Positions 1,653-54,491 of a stretch of DNA of 59,435 nt are shown in pieces; the first letter of the stretch is position 1; every line of letters begins with the position of its first letter. The translations under genes and the position numbers were made by a program. The notes below the pieces were generated by a model that worked only from the letters and a program-made list of their open reading frames with translations, was not told where the DNA came from and ran no database searches. This DNA is from Rhodocyclaceae bacterium. GTDB lineage: Bacteria; Pseudomonadota; Gammaproteobacteria; Burkholderiales; Rhodocyclaceae. Where the stretch lies: the NCBI GenBank assembly GCA_024709955.1, contig JANJVS010000051.1:1-59435 (forward strand), written 5' to 3'.

Positions 1653-3709
1653 CATGGGCGGCGCGTTTTGCGCAGCGGCTTGGCCGGTGTCGCGCACCGT
1701 CCCGCCGGCGCCGACTTTTTCGGCCCGCGCGCGCATGTCGACATGCCGGTGCCCTCCGGCTGCCAGGCGGGGACGAGATGCTTCTTGCCGTTGCCGATCA
1801 GGTCGGCGCGGCCCATCGCCTTGAGCGCCTCGCGCAGCAACGGCCAGTTCCTCGGGTCGTGGTAGCGCAGGAAGGCCTTCTGCAATTTGCGCTGGCGCTC
1901 GCCGCGCACCACGGCGACGTCCTCCGATTTGGCGGAAACGCGCTTGAGCGGGTTTTTCCCGGTATGCCACATGCCGGTGGCGATGGCGAGCGGCGTGGGC
2001 AGGAAGGTCTGCACCTGGTCGAGGCGGAAGCCGTTGCGCTTGAGCCAGAGCGCGAGTTCGAGCATGTCGGTGTCGGTGGTGCCGGGATGCGCGGCGATGA
2101 AGTAGGGGATCAGGTACTGTTCCTTGCCCGCCGCCTTCGAGGCGCGCTCGAACATGGCCTTGAACTTGTCGTAAGTGCCCATGCCCGGCTTCATCATCTT
2201 CGACAGCGGGCCGGTCTCGGTGTGCTCGGGCGCGATCTTGAGATAGCCGCCGACGTGATGGGAGACGAGCTCCTGCACGTATTCGGGCGAGCGCACCGCG
2301 AGGTCGTAGCGCAGGCCGGAGCCGATCAGGATGCGCTTGACGCCTGGAATCCGCCTGGCCTTGCGGTAGAGGGAGATCAGCGGCGCGTGGTCGGTGCCCA
2401 TGTTCTCGCAGATGTCCGGATAGACGCAGGACAGGCGCCGGCAGGCGGCCTCGATCTTCGCATCCTTGCAGGCCATGCGGTACATGTTGGCGGTCGGGCC
2501 GCCGAGGTCGGAGATGACGCCGGTGAAGCCCGGGGTCTTGTCGCGGATTTCCTCGATCTCGTGGAGGATCGAGTCCTCCGAGCGGCTCTGGATGATGCGC
2601 CCCTCGTGCTCGGTGATCGAGCAGAAGGTGCAGCCGCCGAAACAGCCGCGCATGATGTTGATCGAGAAGCGGATCATCTCCCAGGCGGGAATCCTGGCGT
2701 CGCCGTAGCTCGGGTGCGGCGCGCGGGCGTAGGGCAGGCCGTAGATGTGGTCCATCTCCGCCGTGGTCAGCGGGATCGGCGGCGGGTTAAGCCAGACGTC
2801 CCGGTTGCCGTGGCGCTGGACCAGGGCGCGCGCGTTGCCCGGATTCGATTCGAGATGGAAGACGCGCGAGGCGTGGGCGTAGCGCACCGGATCGTTCTTC
2901 ACTTGCTCGTAGGCGGGCAGGCGCAGCACGGTCTGCGTGCGCGGGACGCGCGGCTGGAACTTGATCACCGTGCCGTCAGCGCCGACTTCCTGCGCCGTGG
3001 TCTCGTCGAGCTCCGCCCAGCTTTCGTCGGGCAGCCAGCCCGGCGGCGCCATGAAGGCCGTGCCGCGCAGGTCGCGGATCCGCTCGACCGGCACGCCCTT
3101 GGCGAGGCGGTGCGTCAGTTCCACCAGTGCGCGCTCGGCGTTGCCGAACAGCAGCAGGTCGGCCTTGCTGTCGGCAAGCACCGAGCGGCGCACGGTGTCG
3201 GACCAGTAGTCGTAGTGCGCGATGCGGCGCAGGCTCGCCTCGATGCCGCCGATGACGACGGGCACGTCCTTGAAGGCCTCGCGCGCGCGCTGGGCGTAGA
3301 CGGTGACGGCGTGGTCGGGGCGCTTGTTCGGCGCGGCGTCCGGCGTGTAGGCGTCGTCGGAGCGGATCTTGCGGTCGGCGGTGTAGCGGTTGACCATCGA
3401 GTCCATGTTGCCGGCGGTGATGCCGAAGTAGAGCTTCGGCTTGCCGAGGCGGCGGAAGTCGTCGGCCGAGGTCCAGTCCGGCTGGGCGATGATGCCGACG
3501 CGGAAGCCCTGGGCTTCGAGCAGGCGGCCGATCAGCGCCATGCCGAAGCTCGGATGGTCGATGTAGGCGTCGCCGGTGACGAGCACGACGTCGCATTCGT
3601 CCCAGCCGAGGGCTTCCATCTCGGCGCGGGACGTCGGCAGGAAGGGGGAAACGCCGAAGCGCTTGGCCCAATAGGGGCGGTAAGCCGTGAGGCTTTTGAC
3701 TGGCTGCAT
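1652..3709 (-). CDS. ygiQ: YgiQ family radical SAM protein
   Basis: This 685-aa protein has the UPF0313/YgiQ layout. An N-terminal domain ([19 protein letters not shown]) is followed by the radical SAM core with CxxxCxxC at residues 356, 360 and 363 ([12 protein letters not shown]), which binds the 4Fe-4S cluster. The YgiQ C-terminal region then contains KIAPEHTE. The reaction is not established for the family. The last ~30 residues are basic and low complexity, and a copy of the dispersed repeat (1695-1720) encodes KKSAPAGRC there, so the tail looks extended by the repeat. An HNH nuclease gene lies upstream on the same strand with a 9-bp gap and may be co-transcribed. Confidence 0.95.
1695..1720 (+). 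repeat. Dispersed ~25-bp repeat, in the ygiQ C-terminus
   Basis: This copy matches the family core CCGTCCCGCCAGCGCCGAC with one mismatch, preceded by CA and followed by T5. It lies in frame near the end of ygiQ, so it is translated as part of a dispensable-looking tail. Confidence 0.8.
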
Positions 3710-3718
3710 CGCGGCAGT

Positions 3719-4291
3719 TTACAGCTTGACGCGACTCTGCGAGGGAACGTGGCGCGCCAGAAAGTCCATCTGGTCGGCGAGGATTTGGCGGTTGGAGAGG
3801 ATCAGGTACTCGGCCTTGTTGGGCACGTAGGGCGCGTAGAGCAGCTGCATGCGCGCCTCCTCGGGGGTGCGGCCGCTCTTCCTCTGGTTGCAGGGCCGGC
3901 AGGCGGTGACGACGTTCATCCAGATGTCGCGGCCGCCCTGCGAGACGGGCTTGATGTGATCGCGCGTCAGGCGCAGGTTCGGCAGGCGCTCGCCGCAATA
4001 GGCGCAGATGTGGCGGTCGCGGTGGAACAGTTCGCGGTTGTCGAGGGGCGGCACCTGACGGAACTGCTCGCCGGTGAGGGCGCGGCCCTTGATGGCGATG
4101 ATGCTGTTGGCGCGGATTTCCGAGCGTTCCCCGGTGATGCGGTTCAGTCCGCCGTGGATGACGAAACTGTTCTCGCCGATCGCCCAGGCCACGAGGTCCT
4201 TCGCATAGTAGAAGCAGGCGTGCTGCCAAGTCACCCAGCGGTGTGGCACGCCATGCGGGTCCAGGGTAAGGATCAGAGGATATGCGCTCAT
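3719..4291 (-). CDS. HNH endonuclease family protein
   Basis: The 190-aa protein has a central HNH fold with two zinc knuckles: CAYC at residues 96-99 and CRPC at 131-134. Between them lie the catalytic DH pair at 111-112 (LTRDHIKP) and an Asn at 126 (WMNVV), followed by NQRKSGRTPEEA. This is the stand-alone HNH type (McrA-like zinc ribbon) widespread in proteobacteria near housekeeping genes; its target is usually unknown. It lies 9 bp upstream of ygiQ in the same direction. There is no sign of a partner methylase or of mobile DNA, so restriction is not supported. Confidence 0.85.
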   Translation of the reverse strand: MSAYPLILTLDPHGVPHRWVTWQHACFYYAKDLVAWAIGENSFVIHGGLNRITGERSEIRANSIIAIKGRALTGEQFRQVPPLDNRELFHRDRHICAYCGERLPNLRLTRDHIKPVSQGGRDIWMNVVTACRPCNQRKSGRTPEEARMQLLYAPYVPNKAEYLILSNRQILADQMDFLARHVPSQSRVKL

Positions 4292-4346
4292 TGGTCGGAC
4301 TGCATTCCCTTACAATCGTTCGCTAGCCTATCAGAGCATTGTGACA

Positions 4347-53028: not shown

Positions 53029-53298
53029 CTAGCCGATGATGCTCGGGATCGAGCTGTACAGGCGCCGCATGAAGTCGGTCAGCATGGTGATCATCCAGGG
53101 CCCGGCGACCACCAGGGTGATGAACAGCACGATCAGCTTGGGCACGAAGGACAGGGTCGCCTCGTTGATCTGGGTCGCGGCCTGGAAGATCGACACCAGC
53201 AGGCCGGTGGCGAGGGCGGCGATGAACAGCGGCGCGGAAATCAGCAGGGTGATCTCGACGGCCTGGCGGCCGATTTCGACGACTGCGGTCGGGGTCAT
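53029..53298 (-). CDS. fliQ: Flagellar export gate protein FliQ
   Basis: The 89-aa two-helix protein (MTPTAVVEIGRQAVEITLLI, ATGLLVSIFQAATQINEATLSFVPKLI in part) is FliQ. It is located in the conserved fliPQR order, 13 bp after fliP and 24 bp before fliR. Confidence 0.95.
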   Translation of the reverse strand: MTPTAVVEIGRQAVEITLLISAPLFIAALATGLLVSIFQAATQINEATLSFVPKLIVLFITLVVAGPWMITMLTDFMRRLYSSIPSIIG

Positions 53299-53311
53299 GG
53301 ATATTTCCTTT

Positions 53312-54058
53312 CTAGCCGAAACTCGCCACCAGCGAGCCGACGATCAGCTGCCAGCCATCCACCAGCACGAACAGCATGATCTTGAAGGGCAGCGCGACGA
53401 TCACCGGCGACATCATCATCATGCCCATCGACATCAGCACCGAGGCGACCACCATGTCGATGATGAGGAAGGGGATGAAGACGATGAAGCCGATCTGGAA
53501 GGCGGTCTTGAGTTCCGAGGTGACGAAGGCGGGGATCAGCACGCGCATCGGCACCTCATCGACGGTCGCCGGCGTCGGCGCCTGGGCGACCTTGGTGAAC
53601 AGGGCGAGGTCGGCGTCGCGCGTCTGCTTCAGCATGAAGGCGCGCAACGGCACGGCGCCGCGGTCGAGCGCCTGCATGAAGGTGATGCGGTTTTCCGAGA
53701 GGGGCAGGTAGGCGTCCGCGTAGATCTTCTCGCCGACCGGCGCCATGATGAAAAAGGTGAGGAACAGGGCGAGGCCGACCAGCACCTGGTTGGGCGGCGA
53801 GGTCTGGGTGCCGAGGGCGTGGCGCAGCAGCGAGAAGACGATGATGATGCGCGTGAAGCTGGTCATCAGCAGCAGCATTGCCGGCAGGAAGGTCAGGCCG
53901 GTCAGCAGCAGCAGGGTCTGGATCGACAGCGACCACTGGGTGCCGCCGCCGGCGGCCGGCGTGCTGGTGATGGCGGGCAGGGCCTGCGCCCAGGCGAGCC
54001 CGGGCGCGATCAGCAGCAGGACGGCCAGCAGCCGGGAGAGGCGGCTAGTCGCGGTCAC
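53312..54058 (-). CDS. fliP: Flagellar export gate protein FliP
   Basis: The 248-aa FliP has a cleavable signal peptide (to about residue 25, GLAWA) and the family motifs [33 protein letters not shown] and [26 protein letters not shown] (in part). It forms the core of the export gate with FliQ and FliR. It overlaps the fliO end by 14 bp. Confidence 0.96.
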
Positions 54059-54491
54059 GGCGCTCGACCATCTGCTTGAGCCATGCCGGGAAGTCGCGTC
54101 CTGCTGTTGATTTCGCCGAAGTGGGCACTTCCTGGCGGGGGATTTCGGCGAGCGTGGAAACCTGTCCCGGCGCGACGCCGAGCACCAGCCAGCTGTTGCC
54201 GAGTTCGAGGATGACCACCCGTTCGCGCGAGCCGACGGCGACGGCGGCGATCACCCGCAGAAGACCGGCGGTGCCGCCCTGGGGCTGGCTGATGCGCTTG
54301 AGCAGCCAGAGCGCGCCGAGCAGCAGCGCGAGCACCAGGACCAGGCCGAACACCATCTGCAGGGCGCTGGAACCGAGGTCGGGCACCGTCTCGCCAGCGC
54401 CGACTTCCGCGGCGCGGACGGCGGGCGCGACGAGCAGACTGACGATGGCGGATATCCGTGGCGACATGGCCACGGAGATTAGCCCGCGCAT
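54045..54491 (-). CDS. fliO: Flagellar export assembly protein FliO
   Basis: The 148-aa protein has a signal-like N-terminus, one strong membrane helix ([24 protein letters not shown], in part) and a small cytoplasmic domain ([26 protein letters not shown]). FliO stabilises FliP during gate assembly. A degenerate dispersed-repeat copy encodes EVGAGETV near its N-terminus. The start may instead be the ATG at 54467. Confidence 0.88.
54384..54408 (+). repeat. Degenerate dispersed repeat inside fliO
   Basis: 22 of 25 positions match the consensus, on the strand opposite to fliO; read through as EVGAGETV just after the signal-like segment. Confidence 0.5.

Follow-up and report, generated by a model that had tools for sequence, protein, structure and literature searches.

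We read, with moderate confidence, a dispersed 25-bp repeat in contig JANJVS010000051.1 of a Rhodocyclaceae bacterium (contig C108 of genome G000; 59,435 nucleotides, here called the window) as a functional equivalent of the known DNA uptake sequence (DUS) and uptake signal sequence (USS). The genome comprises 3.51 Mb in 237 contigs (95% complete, 4% contaminated), and the window together with 374 kb of other contigs served as a 433-kb sample. The 102 copies in this sample define a non-palindromic 25-mer, CACCGT[C/g][C/t]CGCC[A/g]GCGCCGA[C/g]TTTT, with abrupt edges and flanks without any conserved signal. Copies were counted as matches with at most three mismatches to its 19-bp core (CCGTCCCGCCAGCGCCGAC in the search of the window). 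The window holds 12 such matches, 8 on the plus strand and 4 on the minus strand, against a mean of 0.23 in shuffled sequence; none of 100 shuffles reached 12. A sequence-only reading of this DNA had described a repeat family of about 25 bp at eleven places and in both orientations. The family is real: all eleven positions hold the core with 0–3 mismatches, and both orientations occur. One copy, at 2966–2990 (+), had been missed, and two of those called more diverged (22158 and 54384) have one core mismatch each.

The whole genome contains 723 matches (377 on the plus strand, 346 on the minus strand) versus 17 (7 and 10) for the reversed pattern. The density is about one copy per 4.9 kb, and 75 matches are perfect in the 19-mer. 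Within the genes of the 433-kb sample, 53 copies stand against a mean of 13.7 (maximum 22) after synonymous-codon shuffling and a mean of 1.4 (maximum 3) after codon-order shuffling, with 30 shuffles each. The sequence-only reading had held that a frequency no higher than expected from codon and dinucleotide composition would speak against the family; both the reversed pattern and the shuffles put the expectation far lower. The core shows fixed and free positions, unlike uniform decay. CGT at positions 1–3, C at 12 and CCGA at 14–17 (0-based) are near-invariant, and positions 4, 5, 10 and 18 are variable. The 25-mer carries 36.0 bits of information versus about 13.2 bits required to specify 723 sites, an excess that would fit drive better than selection for recognition.

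Copies lie in gaps and in genes, as had been noted earlier. Of the 103 copies sampled, 53 fall wholly within predicted genes, 7 partly within them and 43 are intergenic, although predicted genes make up 92% of the sequence; the gene calls come from a run seeded with 11 open reading frames (ORFs), one of which (38619–40301) looks spurious. Intragenic copies show no preference relative to the strand of the host gene (24 same, 29 opposite). Their reading-frame preference is strong, with phase 2 in 37 of 53 cases, and the phase-2 copies encode the linker-like peptides TVPPAPTF or KVGAGGTV.

At least 200 matches were found in 37 of 297 genomes of the family, spread over six genera: 11 of 12 genomes in the genus of G000, 11 of 12 in g2, 4 of 4 in g46, 9 of 9 in g64, and the one genome each of g9 and g38. 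Three genomes (G242, G023 and G045) have 69–79 matches, and the remaining 257 have 0–53. Such background matches in nearly all relatives are what one would expect if the motif simply arose from the codon and base make-up of a GC-rich genome. This explanation is contradicted by the shuffle and reversed-pattern controls and by the low counts in those 257 genomes; we reject an origin by chance or composition and leave it practically no probability. One congener, G247, has 7 matches genome-wide and none at up to four mismatches in 332 kb, where no 10- or 12-mer stands out as a replacement word.

The motif occurs in species dialects, which differ among other things in its 5′ start (CA or YG); these two forms were counted with exact patterns. 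G000 has 359 copies of the CA form and 15 of the YG form, and 16 congeners have 0–11 CA and 102–322 YG copies. Neither form is present in G247. G260 has 3 CA and 4 YG copies, its consensus in a 110-kb sample is CGCCGCCcCGCCAGCGCCGA[G/c]TTT, and the majority of its 407 matches appear to represent a third dialect. In motif-rich genomes of other genera CA is the minority form, with 6–39 copies beside 35–433 of YG. The consensus there, from samples of 60–100 kb each, has GCACCGA in g9, CCGTA and ACTC in g2, CCGTG in g46 and TCGCCGTCT in g38; a 60-kb sample of G148, a g64 genome, held no copy. In a tree of the single gene product FlhA, with G260 and G247 on long branches, the genus of G000 is monophyletic (100/100), with the CA species nested among YG species (89/92 at the fork). 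Because of this position, the CA dialect is most simply regarded as derived within the genus.

Substitution appears to account for the gain and loss of most copies, because ungapped alignments prevail between species. We compared G019 and G080 over 260 kb each; these congeners are 89% identical around flhA, and 46 of 52 copies at up to five mismatches align across. At up to four mismatches, the spanning alignments are ungapped within the motif in 28 of 32 and 32 of 41 cases. In these ungapped comparisons the motif differs at 8.5–9.5% of positions versus 18% in the flanks, and GCCG at positions 16–19 of the 24-mer shows no difference in any of the 28 and 32. Against G247, 254 queries gave ten spanning alignments, which represent seven sites. 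Seven alignments are ungapped in the motif, two of them concerning one weak copy (4 mismatches); in one ungapped example TGCCGTCTCGCCAGCGCCGACTTT of G080 faces CGCCGTTTCGTCTTCCCCGCTTCT of G247. A tblastx comparison of 83 copies with motif-free flagellar loci gave 18 spanning matches, mostly in unalignable linkers or gaps. Gapped cases are a minority, and precise 25-bp insertion is rejected as the main origin on the strength of the mostly ungapped orthologous alignments.

The dialects can be followed at individual sites. Where the motif is kept in both genomes and its 5′ end is ungapped, 9 of 11 orthologous sites read CA here versus TG, CG or GG in congeners; at the flhF site, one of several relatives reads TT at the dialect position. 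The same contrast is seen at two further sites with a gapped 5′ end, 9845 and C74:72360. Together with the genome-wide counts of CA and YG forms, these changes imply that hundreds of sites would have been rewritten in step in the CA lineage.

Concerted rewriting of dispersed 25-bp sites without insertion needs both a reader and a replacing process, and we prefer the uptake reading for this reason, since transformation with a sequence-selective receptor would supply both. In this reading the 25-mer would be bound at the cell surface by a DNA receptor, most probably a ComP/FimT-type minor type IV pilin. DNA bearing the 25-mer would be taken up preferentially and then recombined into the chromosome. 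The word would travel with the incoming DNA, good copies replacing decaying ones, and this replacement would keep hundreds of near-consensus copies at fixed sites on both strands. A shift in receptor preference would cause the sites to be rewritten in step and would give rise to the dialects of species. From the distribution and divergence of the copies we infer uptake, a receptor, recombination that drives the process and isolation through dialect. Of 38 genomes searched for ComEC, 37 have it, G000 included, and the one without a match is 83% complete. A GspH/FimT-type pilin was found in 27 of 29 genomes, again including G000, with misses in G045 and G046.

Several observations weigh against uptake. 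The GspH/FimT pilins fail to separate genomes with and without the motif among these 29. G046, which is motif-rich and 99% complete, has no GspH match, and G247 has ComEC and a GspH-type pilin yet no motif; the presence of these genes does not follow that of the motif. Compared with known uptake words, the 25-mer is both longer and sparser. Two of the 11 orthologous sites are unchanged (C74:40245 is CA in G231 too, and C74:51501 is CG in both species). Gaps fall inside the motif in 4 of 32 and 9 of 41 alignments between G019 and G080, and in 3 of 10 against G247, one of these by a single base. The motif is also contained in composite hairpin elements of G000 and in tandem hairpin arrays of 54-bp period in G019 and G080, which join it to an inverted arm (AGTCGGCGCCCGGCGGGACGTC or similar); such hairpins may have arisen secondarily from inverted copies, or they may point to another process. 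The motif is also found on metagenomic viral contigs, in at least 120 stretches, and 80 viral-contig pieces (729 kb), a set chosen for motif presence, hold 121 copies at up to three mismatches. With copies less than 250 bp apart merged, copies in G000 are spaced more evenly than random (coefficient of variation 0.638 versus 0.894 under the null, P 0.0005), which speaks for uptake, but the evenness is borderline in G080 (P 0.04), and G019 shows no clear evenness (P 0.32). Adjacent copies separated by more than 200 bp have the same orientation in 52 of 84 cases in G000 (P 0.04); the figures are 22 of 32 for G019 (P 0.05) and 31 of 50 for G080 (P 0.12). This tendency is weak but repeated and is not predicted by uptake; strand-sensitive chromosomal functions might produce it.

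The main rival explanation is that the motif is a genome-wide binding site for a chromosomal protein, such as a nucleoid, segregation, repair or recombination factor. Each copy would then be under selection, and the dialects would track changes in the protein. It shares most of the sequence facts with uptake, namely fixed motif positions, orthologous maintenance, dialects, and the intergenic enrichment and even spacing in G000. The shared orientation of neighbours in all three genomes examined even fits it better than uptake. The information content, however, is far above what such a site needs, the motif has no preference relative to the host-gene strand, and a congener as poor in matches as G247 is difficult to accommodate. 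Without a conversion process, it would be hard to see how some 350 sites, each under its own selection, came to be rewritten in one species. We consider a protein-binding site unlikely, while giving it an appreciable share of the probability. A smaller share goes to a mobile mini-repeat of the repetitive extragenic palindromic (REP), miniature inverted-repeat transposable element (MITE) or Rickettsia palindromic element (RPE) type, mobilized by an enzyme in trans, with successive subfamilies as the dialects. The high copy number would suit it, as would the composite and 54-bp hairpin elements and the orthologous sites that are empty or gapped. Solitary copies are nevertheless mostly ungapped against their orthologues, those in G247 included, and have no common flanking sequence; nor would a wave of subfamilies be expected to hit the same orthologous sites. 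The Y1/RAYT family PF01797, a search for which the sequence-only reading had proposed, was not found in G000, G019 or G080, of which G019 and G080 are estimated to be 100% complete and have hundreds of copies; within the panel, 9 of the 21 motif-rich genomes and 7 of the 18 others have it. We judge a mobile mini-repeat to be quite improbable.

Terminators or another element acting at the RNA level would agree with the T-run at the 3′ end of the motif, with the many copies directly after or between genes and with the hairpin forms in G000, G019 and G080. About half of the copies are inside genes, in both orientations, and the motif alone forms no hairpin. At gathering score the window has no match to any Rfam family, and at 30300–30800 there are only matches far below that score; a known structured RNA family is rejected on this result, and an RNA-level element in general is very improbable. 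Use as a terminator may be secondary, by analogy with the USS pairs of Haemophilus influenzae described in excerpts of PMC5217627. Returning to uptake, the sequence-only reading had left three possibilities side by side. The REP-like one fails: the unit is non-palindromic, 53 of 103 copies are wholly intragenic and the Y1 transposase was not found in the three genomes named above, and a REP/RAYT repeat is rejected on the same grounds. The mobile mini-repeat does not account for most solitary copies, which align ungapped and differ by substitution, although small motif-based hairpin elements do exist. The remaining possibility, a DNA uptake or binding signal, is the one that species dialects and maintenance at fixed sites favour.

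A strict YG-type pattern was run against 399 genomes across the order and has a match in 16, of which four are motif-rich genomes of this family and 12 belong to other families, with 1–5 copies each. Two to five full-length copies were seen in otherwise motif-free genomes of other families (G384, G337, G314, G463 and G499); such isolated copies could be transferred DNA or contaminated assemblies. Across the 80 named FlhA loci compared, there were three single matches in total, all chance-like; the best of these loci suggest that the host is a Rhodocyclaceae-like betaproteobacterium. Nothing pointed to a plasmid or a cultured phage as the source: the best-ranked 30 of 107 plasmid records and the best-ranked 15 of 51 phage records with a match hold no full-length copy, with E-values at chance level. 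Among viral contigs, L308:883–2237 carries the motif five times, with four of the copies spaced at 316 bp, and the other viral pieces listed have one or two exact matches each. A different over-represented word, AACCCAGATTGTCCATT, was seen in G019 (L102–L104, L204–L213), where its overlapping 12-mers each occur about nine times in 260 kb; it is unrelated to the 25-mer.

The features in the window and the tandem arrays of the congeners are collected in Table 1. The flhF copy is kept in several congeners despite divergence of the surrounding linker, and seven congeners also have a copy at the place orthologous to the flgE stop. The fliO copy is kept in G187, G274 and G297; G231, G019 and G080 have no intact copy at the aligned position. 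The left part of the composite element has 23 matches across G000 versus 3 for the reversed control. Further composite elements occur in G000 at C74:55026, C104:33725, C104:47900 and elsewhere, and their layout is CCGACTTTTGGCTCCGGCCGC...GCTTAACC-variable hairpin-GGTTAGCCTGC...CCGAAAGTCGG with a motif copy at either end. By eye, the inner hairpin letters vary between copies and pairing is kept; one of six copies, C104:421, folds otherwise at minimum energy. One inverted pair less than 50 bp apart was found in the G000 sample (C37:549/583). Elsewhere in the window, degenerate tandem repeats coding for 10-residue-type units lie at 12225–12504, inside ORF 11492–13792 (CheA-like by eye). A second flhA-like gene, 54% identical, lies outside the window at C68:12–2018 of G000.

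Table 1. Motif copies and composite element of the window, and tandem arrays of two congeners
Feature	Position	Strand	Core mismatches	Context
Copy	1695..1719	+	1	In 3′ part of radical-SAM (Radical_SAM_N/DUF3362) gene read on −
Copy	2966..2990	+	2	Within the radical-SAM (Radical_SAM_N/DUF3362) gene that also holds the 1695 copy
Copy	4637..4661	+	2	Called intergenic, yet longer ORF 4341–5084 (+) would cover the site
Copy	9845..9869	+	0 (perfect)	Between motA and motB
Copy	17282..17306	−	2	Upstream of called cheR start (17358); longer ORF from 17223 would cover the site
Copy	22158..22182	−	1	Intergenic, downstream of SpoIIE/response-regulator gene
Copy	30466..30490	+	0 (perfect)	Gap between cheA-like gene and flhB; left end of composite hairpin element
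Copy	30563..30587	+	2	Right end of composite hairpin element
Copy	34240..34264	+	1	Inside flhF (named by eye from position and translation); encodes linker TVPPAPTF
Copy	43536..43560	−	3	Touches flgE stop codon
Copy	47993..48017	−	3	Between flgJ-like gene (Rod-binding, Glucosaminidase) and next gene
Copy	54384..54408	+	1	Inside fliO (read on −)
Composite element	30466..30587	+		Intergenic; motif, hairpin with outer stem CCGACTTTTGG/CCGAAAGTCGG, spacer, motif
Tandem arrays	L102:8160-8420, L103:12690-12870, L107:6450-6570			In G019 and G080

Uptake sequences are well documented in two families, Neisseriaceae and Pasteurellaceae, and their purpose (sex, food or drive) is an old question. If the uptake reading is true, an unrelated and longer word with several dialects, a derived switch within one genus and a motif-less relative would serve as independent replicates, allowing tests of how uptake words start, spread and change and of the receptor's role. 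The motif would predict which DNA can transform these bacteria, and a change of dialect may act as a barrier to gene exchange between them. If the motif is instead the site of a chromosomal protein, its genome-wide rewriting in one species equally needs explaining.

REP elements and bacterial interspersed mosaic elements (BIMEs) are repeats associated with RAYT transposases. They resemble the motif as short many-copy repeats with hairpin arrays, as seen in G019 and G080; unlike them, the solitary unit here is non-palindromic, half intragenic and found in three genomes without a detected Y1 transposase. Closer likenesses are with uptake sequences. The DUS of Neisseriaceae has ComP as its receptor. 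Excerpts of PMC3630211 describe this DUS as overrepresented, with dialects that follow phylogeny and a strict CTG core. The motif has many copies and species dialects as well, and its hosts, judged by their FlhA relatives, are betaproteobacteria with competence and pilin genes. It differs in sequence and in length (25 bp versus 10–12), and the CTG core is not found, its complement CAG reading CGG in 33% of copies; we reject the neisserial DUS proper for its length, its sequence and this altered triplet. The prefix TGCCGTC of the common dialect resembles the meningococcal DUS, which is a lead only. According to excerpts of PMC5217627, the USS of H. influenzae has about 1300 copies, and inverted pairs form terminators. 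The motif likewise has a high copy number, and its hairpin arrays and close inverted pair may be counterparts of those terminator pairs; it differs in its lower density, in the bacteria concerned and in a sequence unrelated to AAGTGCGGT. Minor pilins appear in excerpts of PMC12616744 as the known or predicted receptors of both, with ComN/PpdA predicted for the USS. In the openly licensed literature we found no report of the motif or of uptake sequences in this group; reports elsewhere are possible. Features that mark DUS and USS recur here: copies far above expectation, on both strands and in genes and gaps, dialects, mostly in-place change, and competence genes, the last not discriminating. 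We tentatively propose, at close to even chances, that the motif belongs to a further, independently evolved system of self-DNA recognition beside DUS and USS, with a 25-bp word shared by six or more genera of a single betaproteobacterial family, dialect switches in single species that rewrite hundreds of orthologous sites, and a hypothetical receptor.

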